From the NCBI GenBank assembly GCA_036346225.1, contig JARFIW010001215.1, forward strand, positions 3,358,501-3,422,500: a stretch of DNA of 64,000 nucleotides, given 5' to 3'. This document shows, in pieces, positions 1,845 to 56,478 of the stretch (positions within the stretch are counted from its first letter, which is position 1; each line of letters opens with the position of its first letter). Made by a program: the position numbers and the translations under genes. The DNA is from Platerodrilus igneus (lineage: Eukaryota > Arthropoda > Insecta > Coleoptera > Lycidae). The notes under the pieces are model-generated. The model made no database searches, was not told the origin of the DNA, and saw only the letters and a program-made list of their open reading frames with translations.

Positions 1845-2386
1845 TTACAATAATGATTTAGAGTTTTTGTTTTTACTGTTAAATTGTTTTTTTTTGTGGT
1901 TATTTAAGATTTCTAGTGACCTAAAAACTGCAGCTCGCCATTTTAAGTGATAATTTTTTTTTTGGTTTCCTGATATACATTTACATTTTTTAGGGCTCAA
2001 AGTAAGGTTTGCCCCGCATAATCTTTGGAATATCTCGTCTAGGTTCTTAAGATGTTCTTCAAAAGACCTGCCTAACACTATCACGTCGTCTAGGTGCACC
2101 AGGCATGTTTTCCAGGACAGTCCACGCAGTATCGACTCCATCAAACGTTCAAAAGTAGCAGGAGCATTGCATAAACCAAAGGGAATGACCTTGATCCAGT
2201 TCCAATTGTAAACGCTGTTTTCTTTTTATCGTTTGGCTCCGAGCCTACCTGCCAGTATCTGCTTTTCAAGTCCAAGATCGAAAACCATTTAGATCCGGAT
2301 AGAGTATCCAGGGTGTCATCAAATCTGGGCAAAGGATAGCCGTCTTTCTTTGTCAGATTGTTTAACCGCCGGTAGTCTACACACAA
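1845..2386 (-). pseudogene. pol: gypsy reverse transcriptase fragment
   Basis: Two overlapping minus-strand frames encode RT blocks. The first (2386-2141) has VDYRRLN, then the catalytic LDLKS block followed by YWQV. The second (2144-1845) has the catalytic box as HLDDVIV, where the family normally has YLDD, and then LSPKKC. The frame changes near 2143 and the sequence becomes low-complexity after about 1970. RNase H and integrase are absent. As seen, it is a dead copy. Confidence 0.85.
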
Positions 2387-2489
2387 CCTTGTCGACTAAT
2401 CGTTTTTCTTGACAAGCACTGCCGGGGATGCCCATGGACTATTCGAAGGTTCAATCACTCTCTGTTGTCTCCATCATGCATGCTTGTCC

Positions 2490-2819
2490 TTACCGAAGCG
2501 TGACATCCGGGTGTCCCATCACGATCATATCCGCCTTCTCGGGTATTTTCATATCACAAATCATTCGAACTTGCATTGTCTGGTTACTCGTCCCTTGAAA
2601 TGGAATCTCATTATCATCTATCTGAAGCACATTTTTTTTTATGTTCACATGAAACCCATATTTTCTCATGAGATCCATTCCCAAGATAACTTTTTCTGTA
2701 ATTTCAACTACCAACACCCGATGATTCATTAGTTTGTTTTCAATTGCCAATGTAACGGCAGCCTCTCCGTGAGTAGAAATTTTCTCACCACGATAGAGGT
2801 AGCACTTTTCCACGAGCAA
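2490..2819 (-). pseudogene. pol: gypsy retropepsin (aspartic protease) fragment
   Basis: The minus-strand frame contains the flap-to-C-terminal part of a retropepsin, with the diagnostic motif VILGMDLMRKYGF. The N-terminal part with the catalytic Asp is in another frame (within 2729-3148), so the domain is frameshifted. It lies between gag and RT as expected. The homologous motif in copy C is VILGIDILKKYGF. Confidence 0.75.
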
Positions 2820-3586
2820 CCAAATTTGATCTCACAATAGTCCTGTATCCACGAGTAATCGGACAACCCTATCATTAATTCTACCATCGATATAAATGCT
2901 GTCCAGACTTCCCATCGACGATGCAGTTCGGATGATAATCTTTGGGGCACTACGTAGTGCTGTCGACGTTCACCTTTTACATCGACCTGCTTTAGCTCAA
3001 CCGGTTGTTTTTTTGGTTTTTGTGACACCCTGTGTGACGTCTGCTTAGCTGCTTCAAATTCAAGCACACGAGCCAGTGCGTCATCTAACGTTTTTGGCCT
3101 TGCTAATCTTAGCGCTTGCTGTATTTCGCTGTCTTTAAAGCCATTCACAAATGTTTGAACAGTCAGTTGTTCGAGGCAGCTTTGAGTATGCCAATCTAAC
3201 TAATCTGGCAATGTCAACTTCGAATTCTTGCAGGCTTTTATTTGTCTTTTGCGATCGGTTTTTAACTTGTACATGGTAAACCTGTTGAAGGTGAGCGTCT
3301 AATATCTCATCTCAAGCTTCGATGTTAAGAGGCCGTAATCATTCTGTTGGTGATCGGGAATCGTTTGCAAGATGTTAAGAGCTCCACCCCCCCCCCTCCC
3401 CGTAGGGCCAATATTAAGGAGATAGCCTTCTCTTTGTTGCACCAACCGTTGATTATTGCAGCAGCTTCAAATTGCTTCAAATATGTCGGCCAATGTGTTT
3501 TACCATCGAATGTGGATGGTTTTACGATAAAGTTTGACGGTATTGACTCGCTTCCTTCCATGATTTTTATTTCTGGCATGTTGTGA
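2729..3586 (-). pseudogene. gag: gypsy gag core fragments
   Basis: Minus-strand frames at 3586-3325 and 3148-2729 resemble capsid-type gag of 412/mdg1-like gypsy elements. The first has the block FDGKTHWPTYLKQFE. The second has EIQQALRLARPKTLDDAL, a typical gag C-terminus. Copy A at 25.2-25.7 kb has the same two blocks. Frameshifts and a C-run at 3385-3400 break the frame. Confidence 0.75.
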
Positions 3587-4146
3587 TATACAACTTAGTT
3601 TGTTAATTCAAGTGGCTGCGAGTTATGTAATCCCCCATTTGATATATACAAAATAAACTAATACTTAAGAAGTTATTAGAAATATTAGGAAATGTGCAAC
3701 AATGTTATGAAGGACAATTTATTACAATTTAATTCAGTTTATTAACGTTCATGAGAACGGAAGCGCTACAAAGTAGCACAAGGATAAGTGACACTGCAAA
3801 TGTCAGGTCACAGACGGTCGTAGACAGTCACGTACCGAGATTACGCAGAAGTAAGCTCGCAACAAAGTAGTTATGAATAGCTTTAAGATTACAACAATGT
3901 ATTATGAATAAGAGTCAAATGAAAGCAGACATTAGGTCTGCAAGTTCCCACAGAACTTTGAGGGGTAGGGAAATTATAAAAGGCCCGGGAGCTCCACTCG
4001 CAGTCAGTTCATCAAACGTTCAGCTTTCACATTGCAGTTCGTAGATAGCTCACTTATACAATTAGTAAATAATTTTCGACTTAGACTAATTATTCAAGAT
4101 TGTAAAAATTCCATTGTTCAATTCTGTTTTAAAAATCAAATAAATG
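3587..4146 (+). mobile_element. solo-LTR-like insertion inside gag
   Basis: This block separates two parts of copy D gag and codes for nothing. On the plus strand it has features of an LTR promoter and leader: a TATA-like attataaaa at about 3972, a GC-rich patch, an initiator-like cagtcagttc, and near the right end an aataaa. The left edge begins near tgttgtgatat (about 3579-3582). Exact ends and a target duplication could not be fixed; atgt occurs at both edges. It could be a solo LTR of an unrelated element. Confidence 0.4.
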
Positions 4147-4148
4147 TG

Positions 4149-4607
4149 TTAAAGTTCAAGAAGCCTTTTTAAAAAGGACCGCTCGAAGCCACGAACCTTA
4201 ACTCGCGTTGTTAGTGAAATCATTTGTTCTTGCAGCCTCATCACATCTTCTTCCATTTTTACCAATTTACTGTCCAACTTTTGCTCAACTGCTTTTACCT
4301 GTTCAGTGACATCTTCTTTTAATGCAATGGAGCTTTCCATTAATCTTTGTTCTAACGTGGCTGTATTTTCATTCACCTTTTCTTCTATTTTCGCGGCATA
4401 TTCACTTAACTTTTCTTTTAGGGTTGATTCCAGTTCAACTGATCCCGCTACGTTTTCTCTAAGTATCACTTCGAGTTTAGCAGACTTCTCATCCATTTTC
4501 TCAGCATTTTCACTAAACTTTTCTTCCATACTGGATTTAAAATCCAGGAAATTCATTAAAGTTTCTGCGTTCATTTTGCTTTGGCTTCTTGTAACTGCAT
4601 ATACCAA
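4149..4607 (-). CDS. gag: gypsy gag N-terminus, coiled coil
   Basis: This minus-strand frame of 152 codons opens with MVYAVTRSQSKM and continues as heptad-like Glu/Lys/Leu repeats with recurring EKLSE/KMDEK units, a long coiled coil. The block is intact but is cut from the rest of gag by the LTR-like insertion below 4149. Copy A carries a decayed counterpart at about 24,627-24,950 on the plus strand. The N-terminal coiled coil probably helps assemble gag; that is inference. Confidence 0.7.
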   Translation of the reverse strand: MVYAVTRSQSKMNAETLMNFLDFKSSMEEKFSENAEKMDEKSAKLEVILRENVAGSVELESTLKEKLSEYAAKIEEKVNENTATLEQRLMESSIALKEDVTEQVKAVEQKLDSKLVKMEEDVMRLQEQMISLTTRVKVRGFERSFLKRLLEL

Positions 4608-17963: not shown

Positions 17964-18006
17964 TAGCACTGGCGGACCTTCTAAGAAGGTACTACACCCA
18001 GTGCTA
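17964..18006 (+). other. two-tier hairpin in the insertion spacer
   Basis: A 9-bp perfect outer stem (tagcactgg / ccagtgcta) and a 6-bp perfect inner stem (accttc / gaaggt) with a taa loop. It lies in the spacer between the partial unit and the left arm. Function unknown; it may be part of the element RNA structure. Confidence 0.5.
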
Positions 18007-18131
18007 ATCGAGGAAGTTGGTCGACGGAAACCAATCCGTTTCCAATTAAACATTAATGAATAATTTTGTCTAGCATGAAGAAGTAATTCGAGCATAGGAT
18101 CGAAATCAAATAAGTGTTGGTTATTTTGCAA

Positions 18132-18178
18132 GAAGCGGACCGGTTTCACTGTCTTGCAGATCATCAGACGGACGCATA
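18132..18178 (-). ncRNA. hammerhead ribozyme remnant (left arm)
   Basis: On the minus strand the left arm repeats CTGATGA (18167-18161), the ctg/cag stem and GAAACCGGTC. The bases after the cleavage site read cgcttc instead of acgggc, so stem I cannot form properly. It is the inverted partner of the motif at 18614-18660 and is probably inactive. Confidence 0.6.
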
Positions 18179-18613
18179 TCTTTTGCAAAACAACCAACGT
18201 TCTAATACACAATTACAAGTGTATTTAAGTGCAAATATTTCTCATGCGCTCTCTATACTCGAGAATAAGCAACTAACTATCGAAGACTGTTTCAGTCTCC
18301 GACGTGATAGCAGATGGCATTGCCAGACAAATTTAATAACTGGTCAAAGACAAGATGAAAATTGGCAAACAAATGACTACCAGGTAGGTAACAGGTCATT
18401 TGTTTACTTAATTTTCATCTTGTCTTTGACCAGTTATTTAAATTTTGTCTGGCAATGCCATCTACGCTATCACGTCGGAGACTGGAAACAGTCTTCGATA
18501 GTTAGTTGCTTATTCTCGAGTATAGAGAGCGCATGAGAAATATTTGCACTATAAATACACTTTAATTTGTGTATTATTTTAGAACTTTAGTTGGTTGTTT
18601 TGCAAAAAGATAT

Positions 18614-18660
18614 GCGTCCGTCTGATGATCTGCAAGAACAGTGAAACCGGTCACGGGCTT
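18614..18660 (+). ncRNA. hammerhead ribozyme motif, type I (right arm)
   Basis: In order: stem I strand gcgtccgt, core CTGATGA (18622-18628), stem II ctg/cag with a 6-nt loop (18630-18641), core GAAA (18643-18646), stem III ACCGGT (18646-18651), cleavage triplet GTC (18650-18652), then acgggc, which pairs with stem I (6 bp including one G-U). All core positions are present. Stem III is only 2 bp with no loop but is self-complementary, as in small type I hammerheads that act as dimers. A U-U mismatch at the base of stem II would weaken it. Confidence 0.75.
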
Positions 18661-19311
18661 GTCTTTTTGCAAAATAACCAACACTTTATATATTGATTTC
18701 GATCCTCTATGCTCGAATTACTTTCTTAAAGCTAGACAAAATTATTCATTAATATACTACGAAATAGAGATGACTGCACAGTTCTGAATCTCCTCGCACA
18801 AAATATCTCTATAACCGAAAAAAATAGATTTATTGCCTCTTTGAGGAACAATTAACCGTAACTATCGACAAACAACGCTATTTAGCACAAAGGTATTAAA
18901 CATACTCCTGGAATACCAGGGATATTCCCTAACGCTAGAAGTAACCAAACAAGAAAACAACCTAAAAAAGGGTAGAAAATAGATTACTAAGTAACTAGGT
19001 GGCGGGTAAAAATAGTTTAAGTAAAATAGTCTAAGTATTAGAAAGTAAGTTAGAAGATTAAGAACCTAGATTTAAGAGAGAAGTAAACAAATAAATAAGA
19101 TTGTCACGTGAAAGGAAGAGGCGCATATAACAAACCAAGCGGAAGAAGGAGCGGCGTTCGACGACCGCAAGGAAACATACTACACAATCCCAACACAAAC
19201 ACCAACTCACCCACAAACCACACACATAAACACTCACATCTAATACAAACACAAACAAACACAACACAAGCACGACCACTCGGCGCGCAAACGGACTTGT
19301 CCAGGACTTGG

Positions 19312-19355
19312 GGCGTTGTTTCCTGGTTTCCGGCTGCCGATGGTCGGGGCACGCC
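19312..19355 (+). other. conserved R1 3' UTR hairpin 1
   Basis: Apical stem ccggc/gtcgg around a tgccgatg loop (19330-19347), enclosed by an outer stem ggcgt/acgcc. Confidence 0.6.
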
Positions 19356-19368
19356 TTAAGAACGGAAA

Positions 19369-19422
19369 CTGCGCCCAGGACTTTGATTTCCGGCTGCCGA
19401 TGGTCGGATTCCCTGGGCGCAG
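19369..19422 (+). other. conserved R1 3' UTR hairpin 2
   Basis: The same apical ccggc-tgccgatg-gtcgg element, enclosed by an 11-bp perfect outer stem ctgcgcccagg/cctgggcgcag unrelated in sequence to the other three outer stems. Confidence 0.7.
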
Positions 19423-19504
19423 GGAGGCAAAGGGTTAAGTTAAGTTAGGGTCAAAGGGTAAGCATAAGTTAGGTTAGTGTAGTAACTTAGGTTAAGACCT
19501 GTGT

Positions 19505-19544
19505 CATGTATCCTGGTTTCCGGCTGCCGACGGCCGGGGACATG
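19505..19544 (+). other. conserved R1 3' UTR hairpin 3
   Basis: Apical ccggc-tgccgacg-gccgg: the G-U pair of the other copies is G-C here. Outer stem catgt/acatg. Confidence 0.6.
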
Positions 19545-19568
19545 TCTACAGCTAGTTTTAGGTTTCAA

Positions 19569-19611
19569 CCAGGGAAGCCGATTTTCGGCTGCCGATGGTC
19601 GGGGACCCTGG
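19569..19611 (+). other. conserved R1 3' UTR hairpin 4
   Basis: Apical tcggc-tgccgatg-gtcgg, outer stem ccaggg/ccctgg. Confidence 0.6.
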
Positions 19612-19789
19612 AAGAAACACGTAGGTTAGTCAACGTAATTTAGTTAGACGTAAATTAGGTTAGGAATGTAAGGCACCAAATGCCAACATCTTTTGTGTTA
19701 GTTTTTAGTTAGATTGCGCACACAACGACCTGTAGTATAATTGTATAGATTGCAGATTGATAGGTAGGGGAAAGAAATAAAGTTGTTTT

Positions 19790-19799
19790 TTTATAGTGT
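19790..19799 (+). repeat. target-site duplication of R1 element (right)
   Basis: tttatagtgt, identical to 8649-8658. Confidence 0.75.
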
Positions 19800-20429
19800 A
19801 TATAATTTACCGCTTAAGGTTATGTTCCGTTTATTTTGTACATAATTTACCGCTAAACTTGTTGATTATTTGCGTCGGCCCGGTGTATATAATTTTTATT
19901 TAAAAATACCGTGTAATTACTTCAAGCACGTGCCTGTACAAAGTGCCGTGATTGATAAACTTTGCTCTTCGCATGTGCGAGAACATTTTCATCACCTTGG
20001 AGAACACACGAAGCATGGCAGTATCGATTTTTCGTTGTAGAAGGCTGCATCACTAAAAGTTCTACGTAGAACCGCATTAGAAGAGTCGATTTTTGTATTT
20101 CGTAGAAGACGGACGCATTATACAGGTTTTTTTATCGTTATTCGTTTGTACGGCCGCCTAAATATAAATGTGCTTTGCTACGCTCGCAATACACAAGCAA
20201 AGTGTTTGAAGTAATTTGTTTTTTGTTTATTATCAATTATAATTTATTTTCGTGTACATCTCCATTTTCTCTACCATAAGTAGCTATCGAAATTACAGCA
20301 AAATTAACAAGAAGCTATAGTTCAATTACTTTATAATCCACTTATCTAGAAATCATCATGTCTTTGAGTAAAAGCCTTTGATTCGTTATAATTAATAATA
20401 TCAATCACCTCAAGTAACAACTATTTTAA
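19800..20429. other. intronic AT-rich sequence
   Basis: It includes two short similar pieces (tataatttaccgct near 19800 and cataatttaccgct near 19840). No coding or element signal was recognised. It separates the R1 element from the truncated LTR of gypsy copy C. Confidence 0.4.
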
Positions 20430-20526
20430 ATTGATCATTGATCTATCAATAATCCTTTGTGTACAAACGCTTCATTTACTTTCTAATGCAATTATTCTGG
20501 TCATAGGTAGACTAAACACCGCTACA
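20430..20526 (-). repeat. truncated 3' LTR of gypsy copy C
   Basis: The minus strand from 20526 reads TGTAGCGGTGTTTAGTCTAC, matching the LTR starts at 23916 and 56619. Similarity to the copy B LTR ends near 20430. Confidence 0.75.
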
Positions 20527-20645
20527 GTGGCCGTTTTTGTCCCCGAACACTCTGTGAACCGGACGTTAAAAGTCCCTGTAGCGGTAAGGAAAGTCCAAAC
20601 CATTTCTACAGTCTCCATGTTCGTAGCACGCGCAGTATCATATGC

Positions 20646-21146
20646 ATTGTAACCACACGTCAGGCTCTGGACTGCACTTTTCTGGAACAGTACCTTTAGC
20701 ATATTCTATACCACCCTCCAGTCCAACCTATCGAGCCCACAACCGATCTTGGGTATGATCAAATTCTTGTCTCAATATTTGATCATCTTGTCCTTGAGGT
20801 CCACTAAGGCGTTCCTTAAATTCTGGTAATCCGGTCTAAGAAGGCAATTGGTTAGTCACCAGATGGTAAATGCCACGATATCGGTTCTTTAGCCGTATGG
20901 TATTTCCAACCTCTAATTGACAACCACATTTATTTTCAAGCTCCCGAACAAAATCCTCTGGACATATAAAGGCCCGCTGCTACGAAATGTGTCAGAGAGT
21001 ATAGGATGAGACATCGAATAGATAATCTGGAATCTTTTAAACATGCGAGCAAGTCTTTGGGGTATATAAAGGCTCGCTGTTACGCAATGTGCCAGAAAGT
21101 ATTTCGATGAGGCATTGAATAGATTACCCTAAATCTTTTCCGTGAC
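20646..21146 (-). pseudogene. TARG1/OARD1-like macrodomain, copy C
   Basis: After ARFGVTEKI and one stop the minus strand reads GNLFNASSKYFLAHC, matching the start of TARG1-type macrodomains (GDLF...LAHC). Further on come RGIYHLVTNQ, then LRNALVDLKDKMIKY, and IIPKIGCGLDRLDW, which agrees closely with the RIGCGLDRLQW active-site motif of TARG1, including the catalytic Asp. A segment of about 105-110 bp (GDLF to the helix after LAHC) is present twice in tandem (about 21146-21033 and 21032-20930). Three or more stops make this copy inactive. In TARG1 this domain removes ADP-ribose from acidic residues. Confidence 0.85.
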
Positions 21147-21199
21147 CCCAAATCTCGCTTTGCCTGTGCAGCTGTACATAAACATGAACCAATCATAAC

Positions 21200-21990
21200 T
21201 CGATTCAGACTTTTGTTTATTCTCACGAGCGTAACTGTTTGTTCGTCTCACTGCTTGCCGTTCTTCGACATTATCAGCGTCATCACTATCGTAGGGTGTT
21301 AACTCGTTAATATGCACCACTACCATTCTTTTTTTTGGGATCTCGCAAATCCGATATACCACGTCGTTTAATCGTTTTTATAACTTCGTGTGGATCCTCC
21401 CAGTGTTTCTGTAACTTTGGCGATAATTCACGCTTCCGTAGCCAGACGCGATTGCCTTCTTGACAACCAGAATCGTGCGTTTTGATGTCGTATCTTGTCT
21501 TCATTTGCTCGCTTTCGAACTGGATATCTTTCCTAAAGTTTTCTACCATGCTGTGCATTTTGCGCTTGAGCGTCTCCGCGTAGATCTCCTACACGATTTC
21601 ATCTCCGGGCTTACATCTAAACTCCAGGTTATATGTTTAACGTATTTCACGTTCAAGCACAGCACATACATGTGCTTCGCCTGTGCTCTCGTGAACCGAA
21701 GACGGATAAGCCTATAAAAATAGATATAAACATCGTGTCCAGTCTCTCTCATGCGCGAAAACTTTCTTGTAAAGGCTCTACCATACCATCAAAATGTTAG
21801 TTCAATTGTCTTGTTCGGGTCTTTCTCATCGCCATCAACCGGCACACTTCTTAGATTAACACGGACTCACTCGAAATTTTAGTCTTAATCGATGTGCAAC
21901 TCCATATGAACTCCGAAACGGCAGAACAGTTTCTTTACCAGCACGTCAGCGATGGCTGCAACTTCTTGGTTTGGTATAGCATATTTCTTT
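21200..21990 (-). pseudogene. pol: gypsy copy C integrase core and C-terminus
   Basis: The minus strand reads, over several frames, YAIPNQEVAAIADVLVKKLF and RFGVHMELHID (integrase core between catalytic Asp residues), then a tail (21558-21307 and 21362-21129) with HDSGCQEGNRVWLRK and SPKLQKHWEDPHEVIK, which is the GPY/F-type DNA-contacting module, then MVVVHINELTPYDSDDAD. The last frame runs without a stop up to the macrodomain. Confidence 0.8.
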
Positions 21991-22245
21991 GGATTCAGCT
22001 CTATATTTTCCCTAGATTTTTAAAACGCTTCTTCTAAATTTTGCAAGTATTTTTCCAATGACGATCACGTCATCCAATTATACAAGACACGTTTTCCACG
22101 ACAGCCCACGCAAGATGTTAGCCTCTGAACACTTGACGCTGACAGGAGTGTTGCAAAGACCAAATTGAATACCTGTAAATTGCCATAGGCCAGTACCAAT
22201 AGTTAAAGCAGTCTTTTCCGGATCTCTGGTTTCCATATCCACTTG

Positions 22246-22503
22246 TCAGTAGTCACTCTTTAAATCCAAGGTTGAGAAACACCGTGACCCTAAAAGTGTA
22301 TCTAGGGTATCGTCAACGTTTGGAACTGGGTTGCTGTTCTTCTTGGTCATATTCAATCGTCTGTAGTCCACACAAAATCTTATTTGTCTATTCTTCTTCC
22401 TAACAAACACAACAAAAGTTGCCCAAGAGCTATCAAAGTGCTCAATCACTACTTGCCCCTCCATATCTCCAATCATTTTCTCAGTTTCCTCGCGTTTGGT
22501 CAA
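22246..22503 (-). pseudogene. pol: gypsy copy C reverse transcriptase fragment
   Basis: The minus frame has MIGDMEGQVVIEHFDSSWA, then IRFCVDYRRLN and FSTLDLKSDY (RT blocks with the first catalytic Asp). The motif set is close to copy D. The YLDD region continues in another frame just below 22246. Confidence 0.85.
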
Positions 22504-22969
22504 TGGGAGTTATCTCGGCTTCTGTTTTATTGACCATGCACTTCTTCTATCGATTCTGTGCTTAACTATTGCTGTTTTTCCTAATTAACCCCGTCGACCG
22601 CGAGTACGTCGCCGTACCGTCGGATTAAGTTTTTGAGTTCTGTCTGTGGTTGTTATTCAGGATACATAGTGTCTTCAACTTCCCTAACAACTTCGCTGAA
22701 TCGTCTTTGGGAATGGCTTGTTCTGAACACCGTCACACCCCGCCACGTGAACAACCAAGAACACCACCCAACCGTTGTATTGTTTTCAACCGAAATTGTA
22801 GTCATTGGCGTTTAAGATCGTAACAGACGTACCATTCATCACTTTGGTCAAAGGATTGTCCACTAACACGCTCATTTCAAGTGATTCGTCAGAAACCGGT
22901 TCAATAACGCGCATAAAGCATTTCTAGAGACTACCATCCAAGCGTCCCATCACCATACTTTCTGTCCTT

Positions 22970-23182
22970 CTAGGTAGGATAATGTAGTCCGTCAGACAAA
23001 CTCGCACAGACACGTCTGCTTAGTAAAACAGCACTTCCTTCTTTCACTATCATGGCATACTCTTTCATATTTACATGGAATCCATACTTTTTCAGGATAT
23101 CTATTCCTAAGATAACTTCTTCGACTACAAGATAAGCAACGACGATAGAAGCAAAGAAGACATAAAGTGTAGGCTGGCACAA
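22970..23182 (-). pseudogene. pol: gypsy copy C protease fragment
   Basis: The C-terminal retropepsin motif VILGIDILKKYGFHVNM is readable; the catalytic N-terminus is missing. It marks the truncated left end of copy C. Confidence 0.7.
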
Positions 23183-23254
23183 GTAAAAAAAGCTGTTGTG
23201 AAAAAGAAAATTTTGATGACATCAAAAATAGATTTAAATATTAGACAAATATTT

Positions 23255-23915
23255 TTAAAGGTTTTGTATGGGACGTGGCTCTGTAAATAATTGAAACGTG
23301 AACGATAGGTCTGGAGAGAAGAGAATAGATGCCTCCGAAATGTAGTGTTGCAGACGTATTTTACAGATTAGGTGGGTAGATTGAGTTTCAAATGAGAAGG
23401 TATTGAGACGCATTGGTAAGAAGAGAACACTCTGGCGAAATGTAAAGAAGAGGATGATTGGACATACCTTGAGACACACAGGATTGCTTAATATTAGAAA
23501 AAAATGTGGTGGGTAAAAATGGTAAAGGCACCCGAGGCTCGAATATGGTAAACAAATTCAGGTAGATGTAAAATGTATTAGTTATGTATCAATGAAGCAG
23601 TTAGCTCAGTATAGGTTAGCATGAAGAGCTGGATCAAACCAGTCTGCGAACTAAAAACCCAACAACCTAACAATCCCGATTATAAAAATTGGTGGGAAAA
23701 TCGAATCTTAAATGAGGATGTATTGCGGCAATAGATGAGAAAGGGTTCTGTGGCGAAATATAAAGAAAGGAAGCGATAGAATCATTAGATATATCTTATA
23801 CAGGATCTTATACAGGATTGATTAATTATATGTTAGAGAGAAATGTGATGGGTAAAATGGTAGAAGCAGACAGACGTTTGAATATGATGAACAAATTCAG
23901 ATGGATGTAGGATAT
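23255..23915 (+). mobile_element. RTE-like non-LTR 3' ends, two overlapping pieces
   Basis: The plus strand at about 23,315-23,640 reads the C-terminal block of an RTE-like ORF: EMxCCRRILQIRWVD, KVLRRIGKKRTLWRNVKKR and RHTGLLNI, then VKQLAQYRLAWRA-like residues. A second, more decayed copy of the same part (ERVLWRNIKKGSDRIIRYI and so on) follows at about 23,690-23,915, right up to the LTR of copy A. It could be an internal duplication or two insertions. Confidence 0.7.
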
Positions 23916-24570
23916 TGTAGTGGCGTTTAGTCTATCTCTGACCCAAATAATTACTTTAGATTGTAATTGAATCGTTTGTACACAACAAATGACTGAAGGG
24001 GCCTGCAGGATCACTTCTTTCGCGAGGACTTGATTGACAGGTACAAGAGTTTTGCATTTAAGAGTTATTTAGATTACAATAGGTACATTCGAGATGTTAT
24101 TTGGATAATTTCTGGAATGTTCTCGACATAACTAGTGCAATTGAGTAAAGTACAGATAACCATTAAGGGGTTTGAAGGTTCAGTTCTAATTAAAGCTTTA
24201 ATTACACTATGATATTTATTTCAAAGCTTTGAAAGTCGTGATATGGAATACACTAGTTTCAAATAATGCTAAATATAAATTGCTTTAAGTAACATAAATT
24301 CCTGTAGTGATTGATATAAATTTATTATAGTGATCGATATAAATTAATAACAAGTGCTTGGATAGGTGATTATAGTGTTTCAATAATAAGTAATTAAGAA
24401 GATAGCAGTGAAGTGTTAAGAAGATAATACTTGTACTGCAAGCGATTAGCTGGAAATAAATTGTAGAGCCATTATAAAAATTTTACTGTAGCCACGAGTA
24501 GTTGAAAAGAGTTGTACAACCGGTTTGATAATAAAAAACCGTTGTTTGCGCAAATAGACATCTCGCTACA
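23916..24570 (+). repeat. 5' LTR of gypsy copy A
   Basis: 655 bp, perfect 5-bp inverted ends TGTAG/CTACA. It is similar along its length to 56619-57196 and to the minus-strand block at 60540-60905, and its start matches 20526. A likely polyadenylation signal is aataaa near 24531. Confidence 0.88.
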
Positions 24571-24590
24571 TTGGTGTCAAGTTGTGGGGT
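24571..24590 (+). promoter_or_regulatory. putative primer-binding site
   Basis: Directly after the LTR end comes ttggtgtcaagttgtgggg. tggtgtca...gtggg resembles primer sites complementary to tRNA-Leu 3' ends used by 412/mdg1-like elements. The match is judged by eye only. Confidence 0.45.
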
Positions 24591-24626
24591 TGTAGTGAAA
24601 AAGTCACTTGAACGATTTTTATTTAC

Positions 24627-25690
24627 ATGCCTGAAACTCGTAAACAAAAACAGGAAATGGATACTGAAACCCATCCCTTTCGGAAAAAGTTCAAGTCAAC
24701 CGTTGAGGAAAACAGCAAAACGCTGCAAGCCTGAGAAAAACTGAACCAGACCCCCGCCAATTTACAGAAACATACCAAAGAACAGAACCGAAGCTGTCAG
24801 CAAAATTAGAAGAAAAATTACTAGAAAATGCGGAGAAACAGGAAAGAATCTCCGCAAACCTTGCAGAAAAACTTAACCGAACCGCCGTTATTTACAGAAA
24901 AATTTCACAGCAGAATTAGACCAGAATGCAAAAGCGATTGCATTAAAACTAATGGCAAATTACATAAATTGAGAGATGAATATACACGACGCTAAAAATC
25001 CGCGGAAAACCTGAAAGCCAAATGTTTCGGCAACTTACAGAAAATGGAATCAAATTTTTTAAAAGATTTATTAGAAAACTCGCAGAAGCTGGACGCAAGA
25101 TTTTCGAAAAAACTTTTAAAAGCTTCGCGTAAAATGTAATTAGTAGTACCTAGGACGGAAGGCTGGATTAATTTTCTAACGGTACAAGTACCATAATCCT
25201 CAGCACTTGTAATATATGCGCACGCCCCAGAGTTTAAGAACGTCAAGGAAGGCAAACTGACGTCAAGCATTAGAGTAAAATCACGCAGATTTGTTGGAAA
25301 GTCGCTTTGGCAGACATATTTTAAATAATTCGAGGCTAGCGCGCGAGATAACGGTTGATACGATGATGAAAGGGCAACCGCTTTGACTGTCGCGTTACAA
25401 GATGTGGCTTTAAATATTCTGCAGATCATATTTAATCATGACCACAAAAGCTACGTGGCTTTAACATCAAGACTAGAAACAAGGCACCGCAATTCTCATC
25501 TGCAACAAGTGTATTACGCTTAAGTGAAGAACCGTTACCAAAAAGCCAGCAAAATGTTTGTAAGAGTTTGAAACAGATATTGCTCGCTTAGTAAGAACAG
25601 CCTACCCAACAGACAGCTGGTAGTACTGACCTGCTTGATGGGATACCCGACGAGGAAATCCAGCAGGCGCTACTGAGTCCAAAGAAGTGT
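24627..25690 (+). pseudogene. gag: gypsy copy A gag remnant
   Basis: ATG 24627 opens MPETRKQKQEMDTETHP and runs into repeated Lys/Leu/Glu/Asn units, a decayed coiled coil comparable to 4149-4607. From 25,250 the plus strand shows the capsid-like block (SLWQTYFKQFEASARDNG in broken frames), then ALTVALQDVALNIL, RLETRHRNSHLQQVY and DEEIQQAL at about 25,670. Many stops and shifts. The frame is then joined to RT thumb sequence by deletion. Confidence 0.75.
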
Positions 25691-26340
25691 GATTTGCTAG
25701 GCGAACAGTAATATACCTAGGACACATAGTTTCACGCAACGGAGTCAGGCCAGACCCGGAAAGTATTAAAGCGATACAAGAGTGGTGGACGCCAAAAAAT
25801 AAACATTACCTACGCAATTTCCTGGGATTGGGCACTTACTATAAAAGATTCGTTTCCGGATTTACGGATATTGCCAAGGTGACTAAAAATGGGCGTGATT
25901 ACGTTTGAGATGAAGTTGGCCAAAATGCGTTCCACAAATTAAGCATTCATTGACAATAGCTACAGTCTTAAGTAATCCTCGATCGGAAGGCAAATTTAGC
26001 TTGGATACAGATGCATGCAATGTCGCCATTGGAACTGTAATAACTCATATGCAAGACAAGCTAAGGAAAGTCATTGGTTACTATAGCAAGGTGCTTTTGA
26101 AACTGGAACGAGATTATTGCATTAAAAGAAAGAAACTGTTGTCTGTGGTAAAATCCGTAGAGCAAGTTCAGTACCTCTACAAGAAAAATTTCACCTAAGA
26201 ATCGAATATACCGCCCTGAAATGGTTGTTACAGTGTATAAACCCCTTAAGGCAAGTTGACAGATGTATAGAAAGGCTGCAGGAGCATGACTTCGACACAA
26301 GTCATCATAATGTGGATGCGCTTTCGAGACTACCTTACTC
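25680..26340 (+). pseudogene. pol: gypsy copy A RT thumb and RNase H
   Basis: SPKKCDLL followed after a shift by YLGHIVSRNGVRPDP and YLRNFLGLGTYYKRFV is the RT thumb/connection block. The frame at 25950-26198 carries FSLDTDACNVAIGTV (RNase H, first catalytic Asp region). About 26,270-26,340 gives RLQEHDFDTSHHNVDALSR, the RNase H end with the Asp of DALSR. Frames are broken between blocks and the palm is deleted. Confidence 0.85.
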
Positions 26341-26599
26341 CGAAGATTGTAGTCATTGCTCATGGTTAGAACAAAAGTGGGTTGGATTACCGTGATCAAT
26401 GGCGATTGGCGGTCTCTACAGTTGCGAACCGAACAAACGAATAACAAAGATCTAGGTTTCATTCTGGATAGGAAAACCAGAGTAGATCGTTTATCCTGGC
26501 AAAACACTACCTCATTGAGTAGCGTCGTACTGGATACAATGATTTTCCGTGAAAGTAGATAATTAAATTTTGTGCGATTCCTGTGAATGGAGAGGGAAC

Positions 26600-27480
26600 C
26601 GTGAGCTCCAATGAGGCAATACAATGTGGGAAGCCCTTTTGAAAGAGTGGTAATCGATATTGACGGTTCATTCCCTGAAACTGACTCCGGAAATAAATAC
26701 ATCTTGGTAGCCGTGGGCTATTTTACTAAATAGATCAAAACGTATGCTATACCAAACCAAGAAACTGCAACAGTCGCTGACGTGCTGATAAAGAAACTGT
26801 TCTGCCGTTTCGGAGTTCATATGGAGTTGCACGTCGATCAGGGCAGAAATTTTGAGTCTGCGTTAATCCAAGAAGTTTGCCGGTTGATGAAGATGAGAAA
26901 GACCCGAATAACAACATTGCACTTACATTTGGATGGTGTGGTAGAGCGTATGAACCGTACCTAGAACAAGTCTCCAAACATAAAACAGATCGGGAATAAA
27001 GTTTACATCTATTTTTATAGTCCTATCCGTCTTCGGTTCACGATAGTACGGGAGAAGCACATGTTTGTGCTATGCTTAAACGTAAGATACGTTCAACATA
27101 TGACCTTGAGTTTGGATGTAAGCCCGGAGATGGCATGGTGTGGAAGAGCTATGTTGAGACGCTCAAGTACAAAATGCATAGCATCCATAGTGGCCTTAAG
27201 AAAAATATCTAAATCACAAGAGATCGGATGAAAACAAGATACAAAATCAAAACGCAAATTTCTGGTTGTCCTGAAGGCAACCACGCCTGGCTATACAATC
27301 CCAAACGTAAGCGTGGATCGTCGCTAAAGTTACAGAGATCTTAGAAGAGTCCATACGAAGTTATAAAAAGAATCAACGAAGTGGTATATCGAATTCGTGA
27401 GCTCCCAAACGGAAGAATAATAGTGGTGCATGTTAGTCGTTTAACACCCTACGATAGTACTGGCACCGAAAATTCCAAAG
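26600..27480 (+). pseudogene. pol: gypsy copy A integrase
   Basis: The core starts near 26,640 with FERVVIDIDGSFPETDSGN (first Asp) and continues through FCRFGVHMELHVDQGRNFE (second Asp, HVDQG) to LDGVVERMNRT (Glu) at about 26,950. The tail covers 27,100-27,480 and ends RIIVVHVSRLTPYDS. One TAG at 26,730 and several shifts are present. The last part is in the same frame as the macrodomain, separated by a single TAA at 27525-27527. Confidence 0.85.
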
Positions 27481-27596
27481 AACGACAAACAATAAGAAGA
27501 GCAAACAGTTATGCTTGTAAAAATTAACAAAAGTCTGGATCGAGCTATGACTGGTTCATGTCTTTGTACATCGACACAGGCAAAGCGAGATTTGGA

Positions 27597-28020
27597 GTCA
27601 CAAAAAAGATTCAGGGTGATCTATTCGATGTCTCATCGGAATACTTTCTGGCACATTGCATAGCAGCGAGTCTTTATATACGCCGAAGACTTGCACGCAT
27701 GTTTAAGAATAAATTTGGTGCTCTGGATCAACTGCGACGATATCAGTCGGGGGTTTGGAAATACCATCGGGCTAAAGGACCGACTTCGTGGCATTTACTA
27801 CCTGCCGAATAAGCAATGGCCCTCTGGTAAATCGGGTTACCAGAATCTAAAGCACGCGTTAGTGGACCTCAGGGAGCAGATGATCAAATTTGGAGACACG
27901 AAGTTGATCATACGCGGAATCGGTTGTGGGTTCAATGGATTGGACTAGAGGGTGGTATGAAATATACTAGAGGTACTATTCCAGGAAGCGGTAATCCAGA
28001 TCCTGACGTATGGTTACAAT
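27597..28020 (+). pseudogene. TARG1/OARD1-like macrodomain, copy A
   Basis: In frame with the integrase tail: KARFGVTKKIQGDLFDV, then EYFLAHCIAAS and FKNKFGALDQL, all matching TARG1-type macrodomains. After a frameshift near 27,745 come RGIYYLPNKQWPSGK (with the Lys that aligns to the TARG1 active-site Lys), YQNLKHALVDLREQM and GIGCGFNGLD. The catalytic Asp aligns with Asn here, and the following Trp is a stop. The C-terminal strand LTYGYN ends at 28020. The domain normally binds ADP-ribose and hydrolyses its ester link to Glu/Asp. This copy is decayed but its position is informative. Confidence 0.88.
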
Positions 28021-28055
28021 GCAAATGGTACGGCGCCTGCTATGAATAGCGTTTA

Positions 28056-28425
28056 TTGCTAATTCTATCAACATTGATCCGATGACCCGAAAACAGACTG
28101 AAACGTGACCAGGTGATCCGGGACCCGAAGTGATTTAAACTGCCCAAGTGATCCGAACTGGCCCAAACTGACCCGGTGACCCGAATTGACCCGGTGACCC
28201 GAAGTGATTCGAACTGCCCAGGTAACCCGAAGTGACCTGGATGACCCAGTGATCCGAAGTGGTCCAAAATGTCCCGGTGACCAGAAGTGCCTCTGTGACC
28301 TGATGACCCGGTGACCCGGTAACCCGAACTGACCCGATAATCTGAACTGACCCGTAAATCCATACTTACCCGATAACCAGAACTGACAGACCTGGCCAAT
28401 CAAGCGCAGTGGTTTAAACTGACCC
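28056..28425. repeat. GC-rich minisatellite
   Basis: Imperfect short units built on gtgacccg, gtgatccgaa and aactgaccc, about 9-18 bp each, fill the interval. Both strands stay open by chance because of the repeat, giving Gly/Ser/His-rich frames that are not genes. It replaces the expected 3' LTR of gypsy copy A. Confidence 0.85.
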
Positions 28426-29497
28426 CAAGTTCTAAACTGTTCCGGAAACGCGAATTCAATATCGGAATTTAAAACACTAAAGTGAACCGAATTTTCGGTG
28501 ATGTCTTTAAGTCTACATGATTTAGGAAGGGATTAATAAGTAGTAAAGAAGAAAGGGCTTAACGAAACTCCGTTTATTAGGATATACAATTCAAGACAAT
28601 AGATTACAAAAAGGAATATAACTATTAACTTTTAACGGTGTAGTTTGATTTTCAAATCTACAGAAAACTCGTATAACTATTAAACCTATTAGTATTTACG
28701 GTACATAATGTGACCCATTTCTGAAAGAAAAAGATAGTGTTTTTAACAGAGTCTGCAAAGAGCATGCAGAATAAATCTTTTATTCAGGAAGACCTGAGAC
28801 AACAGAGCGCAATTCTTATACACGTTACTAAGTGTGCTAAATTGGGACAAATAGTATGGAACAAAACATTACTGCTGGAATCAAGTCCGTCATATTTTAC
28901 AGTTAACAAATTAGGGCACACTATGCATTTCCAATTACTGGTTACAAAAAGCATCGCAAAAGAAGATATGAATTAAAATTGTAAAATTGGAATTAAATTA
29001 AATATGTGTAAAACAACTCCTACTAAGCATAAGGAAATTATAGTTCTTTAATTGTAAAAACACGCATATTTTATATTATATAAAAATTAAAATTAGATAC
29101 AGAATATTAATTAATTGCAACAAACTGGTATGAATGCTTGTCTGAGTAAAATAACTGTAAGATATCCTAACAGCCAAAGATAAGTGACCTTAGAAGGTAG
29201 CCGAAACATGATAGCTTCAAATATTGTAAAGCCTGTTTGAAGTTTAAGCTTTGAGCTTGAGAAATGGTTTGTATGCAAAAGGAAAAGTTACAGAGGTGGC
29301 TTTTTGAATGATACGACGTTAAAGATTCAACTACATATCAAAACCTAAGATTAACAACTTCTAAGTTTTGCTAAAAATCTAAGCTATGCATCAACGGAAT
29401 TAAGGGTCACTCATCGGCTTTGCTTCTAGTTAAAAAATTTGACTAACATCCTAAACATAAATTAATATCTAACGATGAAGTTTGGGTTAAACAATTT
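28426..29497. other. intronic AT-rich sequence
   Basis: A plus frame at 28737-28976 has no recognisable motif. No element ends were seen. The region leads into the 370-bp satellite, and its last 200 bp already have isolated similarity to the satellite monomer. Confidence 0.4.
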
Positions 29498-32455
29498 TCT
29501 ACGTGTTTTACACGCTAAGATGTTATTTATAAACAAAATTCTATTTTTTAGGGGTTGCATCAAGGTAAGAGTTGTTCCTGAGTCAGAAGCAAGGGTATAA
29601 CCTAAAACTTTGTAAAAAGCTAGATGAAGCTGGCCTAAGATCTCGACAGACAAGGCGAAATCTGAATTTTGAGCTACAGAACAAGAATTGCTATGTGTTG
29701 AAAAAATACAAAAGATTTAAACTCCAAGAAATTCTGGATTAAATACCTATGTTAAGTCTCAAAAAAGATTTTGACAACCTAATAATCTGGCTTGTAAGAA
29801 TTTTGTCTGTCCAAGACTTAAAAGGGCTGTAACTCTGAAGGTTTTTTTGACTTGAAAACTTTGAGTATATTTAAATTCCTCCTGTTTTTTATAAACAAAC
29901 TTCTAATTTCTGAGGGTTGAATCTAGGCGAGGGTTGTTCCTGAGTCGAAATCAAGAGTATAACCTAAAACTTTGTAAAAAGTTAGATGAAGTAGTCTAAG
30001 ATCTCTACAAACAAGGCGAACTCTGAATTTTGAGCTACAGAGCAAGGATTGCTGTGGGCTGAAAAATTACAAAAGATTTAAACTCCAGGAAATTCTGGAT
30101 TAGATACATATGTTAAGTCTCAAAAAAGGTTTTGACAACATAAAAATCTGGTTTGTAAGAATTTTGTCTGTCCAAGGCTCAAAAGGGCTGTAACTCTGAG
30201 AGTTTTGTCTTACTTGAAAACCTTGAGTATATTTAAATTCCTTGTGTTTTCACGCTAAGATGTTATTTAATAACAAAATTCTAATTTCTGGGGGTTAAAT
30301 CTAGGTAAGGGTTGTTCCTGAGTCAGAAGCAAGAGTATAATCTAAAACTTCGTAAAAAGCTAGATGAAGGTAGTCTAAGATCTCGACAAACAAGGCAAAA
30401 TCTGAATTTCGAGCTACGGAACAAGAATTGATGTGTTGAAAAATTATAAAATATTTAAACTTCAGTAAATTCTAAAATAAATACATATGTTAAGTCTCAA
30501 AAAAGTTTTGAAAACCTAAAAATCTGTCATGTAAGAATTTTGTCTGTCCAAGGATTTTTGAGTATATTTAAATTCCTTTGGTTTTAAACACTCACATGTT
30601 ATTTAGAAACAAAATTCTAGCTTCTGGTGGTTGACTCTAGGTAAGGGTTGTTTCTGAGTCGAATGCAAGAGGAAAACCTAAGACTTCTTAAAAATTTAGA
30701 TGACGCTAGTCTAAGATCTCGACAAACAAGGCAAAATCTGAATTTTGAACTACAGAGCAAGGGTTAAAAAATTACAAAAGATTTAAACTCTAGGAAATTC
30801 TGGATTAGATACATATGTTAAGTTTCACAAATGGTTTTGACAACCTAAGAATCTGGCTTGTAAGAATTTTGTTTGTCCAGGGCTTGAAAAAGCTGTAACT
30901 CTGAGGATTTTGTCGGACTTAAAAACTTCGAATATATTCAAATTCCTCGTGCTTTACACGCTAAGATGTTATTTATAAACAAAATTATAATTTCTGGGGT
31001 ATGACTCTAGGTAAGGGTCGTTCCTGAGTCAAAAGCAAGAGTATAACCTAAGACTTCGTAAAAAGCTAGATGACGCTAATCTAAGATCTCGACAAATAAG
31101 GCGAAATCTGAATTTTGAGCTACAGAGCAAGGATTGCTGTGTGTTGAAAAATTACAAAAGATTTAAACTCCAGGAAATTCTGGATTAGATACATATGTTA
31201 AGTCTCAAAAAAGGTTTTGACAACATAAAAATCTGGTTTGTAAGAATTTTGTCTGTCCAAGTCTTGAAAGAGCTGTAACTCTGAGAGTTTTGTCCGACTT
31301 GAAAACTTCGAGTATATTTAAATTTCTCGTGTTTCACACGCTCAGTTGTTATTTAGAAACAAAATTCTAATTTCTGGTGGTTGAATCTAGGTAAGGGTTG
31401 TTCCTCAGTCGAAAGCAAGAGTATAACCTAAGACTTGGTAAAAAGCTAGATGACGCTAGTCTAAGATCTCGACAAACCAGGCGAAATTTGAATTTTGAGC
31501 TACTGAACAAGGATTGCTATGTGTTGAAGAATTACAAAAGATTTAAGCTCCAGGAGATTCTGGAATAGATACATATATTAAGTCTTAAAAAAGAGTTTGA
31601 CCACCTAAAAATCTGGTTTGTAAGAATTTTATCTGTCCAGGGCTTGAAAGAGCTGTAACTCTGAGGGATTTGTCAGACTTGAAAGCTTCGAATATATTTA
31701 AATTCTTGGTATTTTATACGCTAAGATGTTATTTATAAACAAAATTCTAATCTCTGGAGGTTGAATCTAGGTAAGGGTTGTTCCTGAGTCAGAAGCAAGA
31801 TTTTAACCTACAACTTGGTAAAAAGCTAGATGAAGCTATCTAAGATCTCGACAAACAAGGCGAAATTTAAATTTTTAGCTACAGCGCATGGATTGCTGTG
31901 TGTTGAAAAATTACAAAAGATTTAAACTCAAGGGATTCTGGATTAGATACATATGTTAAGTCTCAAAAAAAGTTTTGACAACCTAAAAATCTGGCTTGTA
32001 AAAATTTTGTCTGTCCAAGACTTGAAAGGGCTGTAACTCTTACGGTTTTGTCCGACTTGAAAACTTCGAGTATATTTAAATTCCTCGTATTTTACACGCT
32101 AAGATGTTATTTATAAACAAAATGGTAATTTCTGAGGGTTGTTCCTGAGTCGAAAGCCGGAGTATAACTTAAAACTTCGTAAAAAGCTAGATGAAGCTAG
32201 TCTAAGATTTCGACAAACAAGGCGAAATCTGAATTTTGAACTACAGAGCAAGTATTGCTATGTGATGAAAAATTACAAAAGATTTAAACTCCAGGAAATT
32301 TTGGATTAGATACATATGTTAAGTCACAAAAAAGGTTTTGACAACCTAAAAATCTGGCTTGTAAGAATTTGGTCTGTCTAAGTTTTCAAAGGGTTGTAAC
32401 TCTGATTGTTTTGTCCAATTTGAAAACTGCGAGTATATTTAAGTTCCTGAAGTAA
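29498..32455 (+). repeat. ~370-bp tandem satellite, about 8 copies
   Basis: The landmark ctaagatctcgaca and variants recurs at about 29636, 29997, 30376, 30712, 31081, 31460, 31839 and 32202, spacing 336-379 bp. Other landmarks (tacacgctaagatgttattt, gggttgttcctgagtc, aaactccaggaaattctgga) keep the same order in each monomer. No coding potential. It lies inside the large sulfotransferase intron. Confidence 0.92.
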
Positions 32456-43305: not shown

Positions 43306-43309
43306 ACAG

Positions 43310-53290: not shown

Positions 53291-53299
53291 CTTGATACT

Positions 53300-54240: not shown

Positions 54241-54959
54241 ATCCATTGCGAAGTGCAAAAGCACATAATATTGAAAAGTATGTCGAAAACAATGTAATTT
54301 TAACTTTGTAATAATAGACAAGTAATGTTGCCATCGGAAGTGTACTATCCCAGATCTTAGGCAACGTTATTTTAGTAACTTGCTCTCGAAACCGAACAGA
54401 ATTATTGTTGGGTGGGTGTAAATTTAGTAGAACACATTTATAGGTACCTGTACGGGAGAAAATTCCACATGCTAACCGACACGCCGCCCGCTTAGGTATC
54501 TGTAAGGGAGAACATTTTACCTAAGAACGTACGCCATTTTCTAATGCCTATTACATTTTTTAAAACCCGAAGCGCAAGTAACCAGATGGATAAAAAGGCT
54601 GCAGGAGTATGACTTCGATACGGAACACCGCGCTGGTACAGGGCATCGTTATATCGATGCACTTTCGAGACGACCTTTTTCCGAAAATTGTAGCTATTGC
54701 TTACGGTCAGAAACGAAATTTGATCTACTTGGTCAGACTACCGTGATTAATGACGATTGACAGTCTTTCCATTTGCAAACCGAACAGAATGAGAAAGACT
54801 GGATTAAAAAGCCAAATTAGAAAAACCATCTTGGTAGAATATTAGTCCTTTGAGCAGCACCCTGAAGCCGTACTAGACACAATGGGATTCCCTGATGCTA
54901 GAAAAAGGAATCTTAGTGCAAATGTTGGAGAACGGAGAAGAATCCGTGAGTACGCTTTG

Positions 54960-55990
54960 GGTGGTGGTTCCTATAAACAAGCTGTTGGAGGTTTTAGAAC
55001 ATCTACATACTAGCACCTCGGGAAAACACTTTGATGTCAAGAAGGTTCTGAAGAAAATTTGAGCAATATCTTACTGTCTAGGCTGCAAGGACGATGTAAA
55101 CGAGTTGAGCTGCAAGTCCCAGCTGTGTGCACCATTGAGAAACCGAAAGGCTCCAATATTGCAATACAACTTGGGAAAGCCCCTTGATAGAGTGGGAATC
55201 GATATTGCCAGTTTATTCCCTGATACCGATTCCGGAAATAAGAACGGTGACCATAGGCTATTTTACGAAGTGGACCTAAGCATATCTTGCAACAGTCGCT
55301 AAAGTGCTGGTAGGACACTTTTCTATCGTTTTGGGGTTCCTAAAAAGTTGCACGTCGATTAAGTACGAAATCTTGAATTAGTGTTATTTCAAGAAGCTTG
55401 CCGGTTGCAGTATATGAGAAAAACCCGAACAACGCCATCGAACTTACAATCGGATGGTATGTTAGAGTGCATGAACCGCTCCTTGGGCAAATACCTTTCC
55501 AACGTGGTCTCCTAACATCAGAGAAACCTGAATCAATACTTTTATTGGCCTATCGATTTTCAATTTATGAGAGCACCGAATAGATATCTGTATGCGCCAT
55601 GCTGGGATGCAAAATTCGTCTACCACGTGATCTTGAGTTTGGATGTAAACCCAGAGAAGACGTTATCGGAGAGAGCTACGTCGAGAAGCTCAAACGCAAG
55701 ATGCATGACATTCATGATGATGTTAGAAATAATATCCAGATCGCAAGCGATCAGATGAAGATCAGATATGAAAAGGGGCAGGAATCTGTTTTTCATGAGC
55801 GTGACCACATCTGGCTATATAATTTCAGATGGGGAATGGACTGTCGACAAAGTTATAAAGGCATTGGAAGGATTCATATGAAGTTATAAAAATGAAGAAC
55901 GACGTGGTAGTTCGGATTCGTAAACTTCCAAAAAGAATAACTATAATCGTGCACGTTAACCGGTTAACATCCTACGATAATGATGACGTC
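54960..55990 (+). pseudogene. pol: gypsy copy B integrase
   Basis: SYCLGCKDDVNELSCKSQLC (zinc module end), GKPLDRVGIDIASLFPDTDS (first Asp), RFGVPKKLHVD followed by a stop (second Asp), and QSDGMLECMNRSLGKYLSNV (Glu) are read in broken frames. The tail 55599-55889 (YVEKLKRKMHDIHDDVRNNI, VFHERDHIWLYNF) and 55892-55990 (KRITIIVHVNRLTSYDNDD) match the tails of copies A and C. Confidence 0.85.
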
Positions 55991-56076
55991 GGTAATGCCG
56001 AAGAACGGCAAACATTGGGCCGAACTTTGATTGGTTCATGTCTCTGTACAGTGGCGCATGCAAAACTAGATTTGCG

Positions 56077-56478
56077 GTCACAGAAGATACTCAAGGCGAT
56101 CTTTTCAATGTACCGTCAGAAAACTGCCTGACACATTGCATATCAGTTGGCCTAGATATGTCCCGAGGGCTTGATCGAATGTTTAAAAATAAATTTGATA
56201 GTCCGGATCAACTTCCCTGGCAACAATCAGAGGTTTTTAGGACCATACGGCTAAAAGACCAACATCGTAACATAGTGACTAAGCAATAGTATTCTGGTAA
56301 ATCGTATTACCAGGATCCATGAAAGGCGTTAATGGACCTCAAGGGTCTGATGATCAAATTTGAAGGCAAGAAGTTGGCCATACCCATGATCGGACATGGA
56401 CACCATGAGTTGAGATGGAGGATGGTACCGAATATGCTAGAGGTACTGGAGTCCAGAACTTGGTGTGTGCTTACAATC
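56077..56478 (+). pseudogene. TARG1/OARD1-like macrodomain, copy B
   Basis: The plus frame has VTEDTQGDLFNVPSENCLTH, CISVGLDMSRGLDRMFKNKF and IRLKDQHRNIV, then after a shift YQDP.KALMDLKGLMIKFEG and IPMIGHGHHELRWRMVPNML. The region aligned to GCGLDRLQW reads GHGHHELRW, so the active-site Cys and Asp are both altered. Several shifts make it inactive. Position relative to integrase tail and LTR equals that in copies A and C. Confidence 0.82.

Follow-up and report, generated by a model that had tools for sequence, protein, structure and literature searches.

A TARG1-type macrodomain fused behind the integrase of a Ty3/gypsy-type retrotransposon family in Platerodrilus igneus

Does a retrotransposon family of the beetle Platerodrilus igneus carry a domain for handling adenosine diphosphate (ADP)-ribose behind its integrase, and has selection kept it there? 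The question is raised by a 64,000-nucleotide stretch of contig JARFIW010001215.1 (positions 3,358,501 to 3,422,500, forward strand; hereafter the window), in which an earlier, sequence-only reading had placed a TARG1/OARD1-type macrodomain directly after the integrase of a Ty3/gypsy element, at 27360–28020. We find the domain at that place as a relic, and elsewhere in the genome within an unbroken reading frame. Purifying selection has kept the macrodomain, as our data show for young copies and bound for old ones. That the fusion exists and is under selection we hold to be very nearly certain.

In the window copy, a relic, the macrodomain is broken by a frameshift (Table 1). A translated search (tblastn) with the corresponding piece of an unbroken relative, L017, recovered the whole domain, and when the two open pieces were compared with 177,635 PDB sequences by phmmer, C6orf130/TARG1 came first for both; the two matches fall on adjacent stretches of the same entry, 2eee (chain residues 13–59 and 69–124). 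Six motifs had been read as one continuous frame interrupted by a TAA at 27525–27527. The stop is present, but only QGDLFDV, YFLAHC and FKNKFG share the frame of the integrase; GIYYLPNK, YQNL and GIGCG follow in another, from about 27757. The remnant of the p58-type integrase C-terminal domain reads on into the N-terminal half of the macrodomain without a change of frame, barring stops such as this TAA; additional stops occur near the end of the copy, and an asparagine stands at the equivalent of residue D125 of human TARG1. The frameshift, the extent of decay in the window copies and a CCCH-like zinc finger after the macrodomain had all been overlooked. A search with the Pfam Macro profile, which had been proposed as a check, gave a divided answer: neither open piece of the window macrodomain is matched, and the unbroken relative L017 is matched above the gathering score.

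A search of the source genome (2.71 Gb, 1723 contigs) with this profile, PF01661, returned 20 rows. To judge from their translations, L001 and L002, on one contig, resemble exons of a MACROD-type host gene and L003 resembles another macro gene. Coding-strand translations were made for 11 of the remaining 17 rows (all but L008, L012, L014, L015, L016 and L019), and all 11 read as retroelement copies, some of them broken. L017 has a stop-free frame of 691 amino acids that comprises an integrase zinc finger, integrase core, p58 C-terminal domain, macrodomain and CCCH-like finger (Pfam: Integrase_H2C2, expect value (E) 7.3e-21; rve, 3.5e-16; Integrase_p58_C, 1.9e-13; Macro, 7.7e-6, at 26.3 bits against a cut-off of 22; CCCH profiles match below their cut-offs); no chromodomain is among the Pfam matches up to E 0.1 in this frame. 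Compared with PDB chains only, its macrodomain is closest to human TARG1 (4j5r; E 7e-38), with 61 of 132 aligned residues identical, and the next macrodomain follows at E 3.7e-7. It also matches the DarG profile NF048014 of NCBIfam over positions 26–156 of 338, with 56.4 bits, below the cut-off of 250. In the old copies L098 and L094, too, the open stretches have TARG1 as their first PDB match (E 2.7e-22 and 7.6e-26, respectively). A TARG1/OARD1-type macrodomain is fused behind the integrase of this Ty3/gypsy-type family.

As whole elements we examined eight stretches of nine kb, most of them selected because their open frames are long. Each is bounded by a pair of long terminal repeats (LTRs) of 525–588 bp that are 93.5–99.8% identical, and at least 98.4% identical in seven of the eight. 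Direct repeats of 4 bp flank seven elements (in L051 the ends are shifted 3 bases inward, and in L052 the repeats lie inside an AT repeat); the flanks of L053 are mismatched and have no such repeat. The gag and pol frames measure 425 and 1441 amino acids in L052 and 405 and 1418 in L056, and since pol ends inside the 3′ LTR in both, no room is left for an env frame after it. By Pfam, pieces of L052 contain a CCHC knuckle, an aspartic protease, a reverse transcriptase (RVT_1), RNase H and an integrase zinc finger, and its C-terminal piece contains Macro and a sub-threshold CCCH match. Taken with the L017 frame, these give a gag with CCHC followed by the order protease, reverse transcriptase, RNase H, integrase, an order common to retroviruses too; in this family, Pol continues with the TARG1-type macrodomain and the CCCH-like zinc finger. 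The finger lies at L017:1855–1950 and L052:6897–7115, where the translation shows cysteines and a histidine spaced much as in C-x8-C-x5-C-x3-H, and PF00642 scores 19.5 and 20 bits on this stretch in L004 and L052, against a cut-off of 20.5.

The domain had also been taken as a property of the element family, and the copies sampled bear this out. A 178-residue query comprising macrodomain and CCCH finger met 13,439 first-look candidates. The best 150 were scored and are for that reason a non-random sample: 149 cover the full query and one covers 177 residues, at 94–100% identity (L017 itself included) and on many contigs, and by hand count 133 of the 150 list no stop. A domain-blind sample was drawn with the integrase core as query (54,874 candidates, best 150 scored), taking every seventh row from 2 to 135, and the macrodomain and CCCH stretch lie downstream in all 20 copies so chosen. 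The sample covers the young subfamily only, since its 150 rows are 96–100% identical to the integrase piece of L017. Hand counting finds an identical open-frame length, 382 amino acids, for 14 of the 150 integrase matches, on different contigs; this points to a common defect or a common assembly error. With a piece of the window macrodomain as query (6,259 candidates, best 150 scored), the best other copy is 68% identical and no open frame above 234 amino acids is listed, which places the window copy in an older, decayed set; the window integrase piece met 14,186 candidates, of which again the best 150 were scored. Twenty copies of the old set were fetched, 15 spread over rows 2–100 and five picked for longer frames. 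The macrodomain is present in them by selection; by our own counts, 14 of the 20 match the integrase and eight match the CCCH finger. A family in which most copies lack the domain, or share it through one segmental duplication, had been named as the finding that would speak against the fusion. In the integrase-selected sample every copy is a carrier, and a single duplication is ruled out by differing flanks and by the elements' own 4-bp repeats in seven of eight. These data show a long-lived and abundant Ty3/gypsy-type LTR retrotransposon family.

We compared synonymous and non-synonymous differences (pS and pN) over codon columns in the 20 integrase-selected copies. In the macrodomain, pS is 0.097 and pN 0.0195, giving a pN/pS of 0.20 (bootstrap 0.12–0.34), which indicates purifying selection among young copies. 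The linker before the macrodomain gives 0.34, and integrase residues 271–440 of L017 give 0.105 (0.057–0.174), a value that is low partly because the copies were chosen by integrase. Macrodomain variants present in at least two copies comprise 24 synonymous changes, 15 non-synonymous changes and no stops, against 14, 26 and four, respectively, among singletons (Fisher p 0.025 for synonymous versus non-synonymous, shared versus singleton). Copies picked by their macrodomain score give a dN/dS ratio of 0.19, which we leave out of the argument because such picking biases it. Between the old and young sets pS is 0.79, and pN is 0.375 in the macrodomain, 0.32 in the integrase C-terminal domain and 0.21 at the end of the integrase core. 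Because synonymous differences are saturated, this comparison serves only as a bound; for the macrodomain no point ratio can be computed, and bootstrapping gives a finite value in only 28 of 300 replicates. The decay of old copies must account for some of the old–young pN, given a pN of 0.24 inside the old set alone. In that set (20 loci and the three window copies), columns identical between human TARG1 and L017 are matched at 0.61 (61 columns), compared with 0.33 at the others (71 columns; p 6e-6).

We take D125 of human TARG1 to be a catalytic residue, and the alignment places of D125 and of K84 are likewise our assumption. L017 has the equivalents of both K84 and D125; among old-set copies, 20 of 23 have the former and 15 of 23 the latter, and among young ones the counts are 12 of 13 readable copies and 20 of 20, respectively. 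K84 is the catalytic lysine of TARG1 (PMC8501950, in excerpt). The pocket appears altered because the loop that reads MGAGIA in TARG1 reads MSRGIA in L017, where only the last glycine of GAG survives. By sequence, then, the putative catalytic residues persist, but the predicted pocket differs from that of human TARG1.

From these residues and the fusion we infer an activity, a substrate and a purpose. The macrodomain is related to the cellular mono-ADP-ribosylhydrolase TARG1/OARD1 and was captured by the element; most likely it is an active hydrolase carried along with the integrase. It would strip ADP-ribose placed by host transferases on the element's complementary DNA (cDNA), genomic RNA or integrase, and so let reverse transcription and integration finish, with the zinc finger as its likely anchor to RNA or to the preintegration complex. 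TARG1 reverses thymidine-linked ADP-ribosylation of DNA in a K84-dependent manner, and earlier work on DNA and RNA ends is cited alongside (PMC8501950, in excerpt); NADAR enzymes reverse guanine ADP-ribosylation (PMC11125620, in excerpt). We prefer the eraser reading because its ADP-ribose-processing theme is shared with NADAR-bearing Gypsy elements and because the domain is tethered to integrase. On these analogies, an ADP-ribosylhydrolase working for the element has, in our judgement, a slightly better than even chance of being correct. We would put forward a wider proposal only tentatively, as rather unlikely in its full extent: animals may ADP-ribosylate retroelement cDNA or genomic RNA as a defence, which this family would answer with an integrase-tethered eraser of TARG1/DarG type, an animal parallel to the DarT/DarG conflict that sets bacteria against phages. 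Brown-algal Gypsy elements that bear NADAR would then be an independent instance.

Several observations weigh against a conserved, working domain of this kind. D125 is gone from eight of the 23 old-set copies, five of which have asparagine there, and those copies are decayed. The MSRGIA loop is not peculiar to L017 and recurs in most other young copies displayed. The Pfam Macro profile is silent or below cut-off on the old copies L098, L094 and L097. Support from the Fisher test is modest, and the same test on the integrase gives p 0.065. At least one length change lies between the integrase end and the zinc finger in 15 of the 20 integrase-selected copies, often at the same short base runs on different contigs; of the remaining five copies, one carries a stop within the macrodomain. 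Such length changes may be decay, an inherited and shared defect, or assembly error, and copies with unbroken frames are unaffected by them. Lastly, the macrodomain may part from the integrase after proteolysis.

Next to the eraser we place a reader or targeting module, which would bind ADP-ribosylated chromatin and steer integration as the chromodomain of chromoviruses does, its catalytic residues being kept for the shape of the pocket. The macrodomain sits after the integrase C-terminal domain, where Gypsy elements bear chromodomains or a Tudor domain (PMC12477816), and its GAG loop is changed. TARG1 is a nucleolar–nucleoplasmic shuttling protein that interacts with poly-ADP-ribose (PMC5928194, in excerpt), and in a chikungunya study in mosquitoes, binding rather than hydrolysis was critical (PMC12632316, in excerpt). 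However, the lysine retained in 20 of 23 old-set copies is not obviously needed for pure binding, and we give a reader an appreciable but minor chance. Counter-defence against cytoplasmic PARP-type antiviral proteins is more doubtful still. The domain would then remove ADP-ribose from host proteins or Gag, and the CCCH finger would compete with ZAP-like factors for RNA, in keeping with RNA-virus macrodomains that counter host antiviral ADP-ribosylation (PMC7232374, in excerpt) and with the restriction of human retrotransposition by ZAP (PMC4441479, in excerpt). A ZAP-like CCCH profile does match (E 0.036), but at 14 bits, far under its cut-off of 27, and the domain is part of an integrase fusion, not a free protein. 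That the macrodomain is a passenger, fused by chance, functionless and kept by replication of the whole element, would agree with the many broken copies and with accounts of accessory domains as non-stringent in retrotransposon polyproteins (PMC6338049, in excerpt). It accords poorly with the lower pN/pS of the macrodomain than of the preceding linker (0.20 and 0.34), with an old–young pN of 0.375 at saturated pS and with the preferential retention of human-shared residues, and we consider it very improbable. An assembly artefact, one segmental duplication or chance motif matches might be suspected from the window copy alone, which is weak and missed by Pfam, but are ruled out for practical purposes by 149 of 150 best-scoring matches being full-length on many contigs, by unbroken frames, LTR pairs, differing flanks and 4-bp repeats in seven of eight elements, and by the 20 of 20 carriers.

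How does the fusion compare with known systems? Human TARG1/OARD1/C6orf130 is the same domain over the 132 residues aligned, with K84 and D125 kept, but is a small free-standing protein, whereas the domain here is fused to integrase, precedes a CCCH-like finger and has SRG in place of GAG. A Gypsy lineage of Ectocarpus likewise has an ADP-ribose-processing domain in a Ty3/gypsy Pol, a YbiA-family NADAR (PMC12477816); unlike it, the present element has a macrodomain, located after the integrase and nearest in the PDB to an animal protein. Epsilon-like endogenous retroviruses of fish are also retroelements with a macro domain, which by the excerpted description is borne on additional open reading frames (ORFs) and not in a Ty3/gypsy integrase fusion (Basta et al. 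2009, via PMC4977317). Gypsy integrases with chromodomains or Tudor domains share the extra domain C-terminal to the integrase, but these are histone readers, whereas the domain here is an ADP-ribose domain of hydrolase type. Orchid Gypsy elements with an AlkB N6-methyladenosine demethylase also captured a nucleic-acid demodification enzyme, although with other chemistry and, in the excerpted text, in a separate reading frame (PMC9289625). Macro domains in retroelements are thus known already; as far as our searches show, a TARG1-type macrodomain with a CCCH-like finger behind a Ty3/gypsy integrase is undescribed, no account of a Ty3/gypsy integrase–macrodomain fusion having been found in the open-licence literature, which is not all of print.

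Extra domains that selection keeps in retroelements reveal host processes that press on them. An eraser found on both sides of a synonymously saturated divergence, with thousands of candidate matches unscored, would imply that ADP-ribosylation affects how retroelements of animals transpose or integrate. Together with the NADAR-bearing Gypsy Pol of brown algae and the macro ORFs of fish, it suggests that retroelements have taken up ADP-ribose processing repeatedly and independently, and raises a biochemical question that can be put to the test, namely whether the substrate is protein, DNA or RNA.

A free-standing macrodomain of TARG1/DarG type was met in a collection of viral contigs. A single-sequence query of the collection found no homologue; an alignment query found one (L100:2980–3399), on the 110-kb contig IMGVR_UViG_3300033149_001257. 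It is 139 amino acids long, has MGAGIA, LVTKK and GCGLDRL, and is 47% identical to human TARG1 over 127 residues.

Within the window, the arrangement had been reported in two further copies, and tblastn locates both, at 21992–20649 (minus strand) and 54937–56460 (plus strand). The minus-strand copy is 75% identical to the main window copy in DNA over 1389 aligned positions. In the main element, between the gag remnant and position 25702, the protease piece and the start of the reverse transcriptase piece have no tblastn match. An LTR proposed at 23916–24570 could not be confirmed: in a self-comparison of 18000–30500 its first 81 bp match, inverted and at 79%, a place near the minus-strand copy.

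Table 1. Remnants of the element family located in the window
Feature	Position	Strand	Basis
Gag remnant, main window element	24621..25611	+	tblastn with L052 gag piece, E 1.1e-31
Reverse transcriptase end, main window element	25702..25941	+	tblastn
RNase H remnant, main window element	25971..26377	+	tblastn, E 3.3e-38
Integrase core remnant, two pieces with several stops	26608..27131	+	tblastn with L017 core, E 1e-58
Integrase C-terminal (p58-type) domain remnant	27135..27569	+	tblastn, E 6.9e-33
Whole macrodomain relic	27576..28017	+	tblastn with piece of unbroken relative L017, E 1.6e-26
TARG1-type macrodomain relic, N-terminal half, integrase frame	27576..27761	+	phmmer against PDB, C6orf130/TARG1 first, E 4.5e-4
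TARG1-type macrodomain relic, C-terminal half, another frame	27757..28017	+	phmmer (27763–27945), C6orf130/TARG1 first, E 3.1e-5
Macrodomain relic with insertion and stops, second copy	20649..21167	-	tblastn, E 2.6e-23
Integrase core and C-terminal remnants, second copy	21240..21992	-	tblastn; Integrase_p58_C in 21129–21377, E 4.1e-7
Reverse transcriptase and protease remnants, second copy	21958..23128	-	tblastn, reverse transcriptase E 2.2e-62, protease E 1.3e-11
RNase H, integrase zinc finger, core and C-terminal remnants, third copy	54321..56002	+	tblastn
Macrodomain relic, third copy	56053..56460	+	tblastn, E 7.4e-27
Partial copy nearer the young subfamily; gag, protease and reverse transcriptase only matched	1983..4607	-	tblastn with L052 pieces, 49–94% identity

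The window also holds features of other kinds. A minus-strand open frame with a PHD finger (53010–53627; E 1.5e-8) adjoins a frame at 53707–54237 whose integrase zinc finger shares only 31% identity with its L017 equivalent. On the plus strand, a 720-residue open frame at 12454–14616 has DUF1759 and a sub-threshold aspartyl-protease match, and is flanked by 100%-identical direct repeats at 11059–11358 and 14593–14892; from its domains we take it to be a Bel/Pao-type element, perhaps internally deleted. An open frame at 8078–8578 (minus strand) matches a sulfotransferase domain (E 2.5e-17) and is possibly a host exon or retrocopy. Diverged repeat arrays occupy 29497–32363, with a spacing of about 380 bp, and 39276–44710, with a spacing of about 148 bp. 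Across the genome contigs we also met 97 matches to mitochondrial COX1; several span the whole profile, one is free of interruptions when translated with the invertebrate mitochondrial code, and they are probably nuclear copies.
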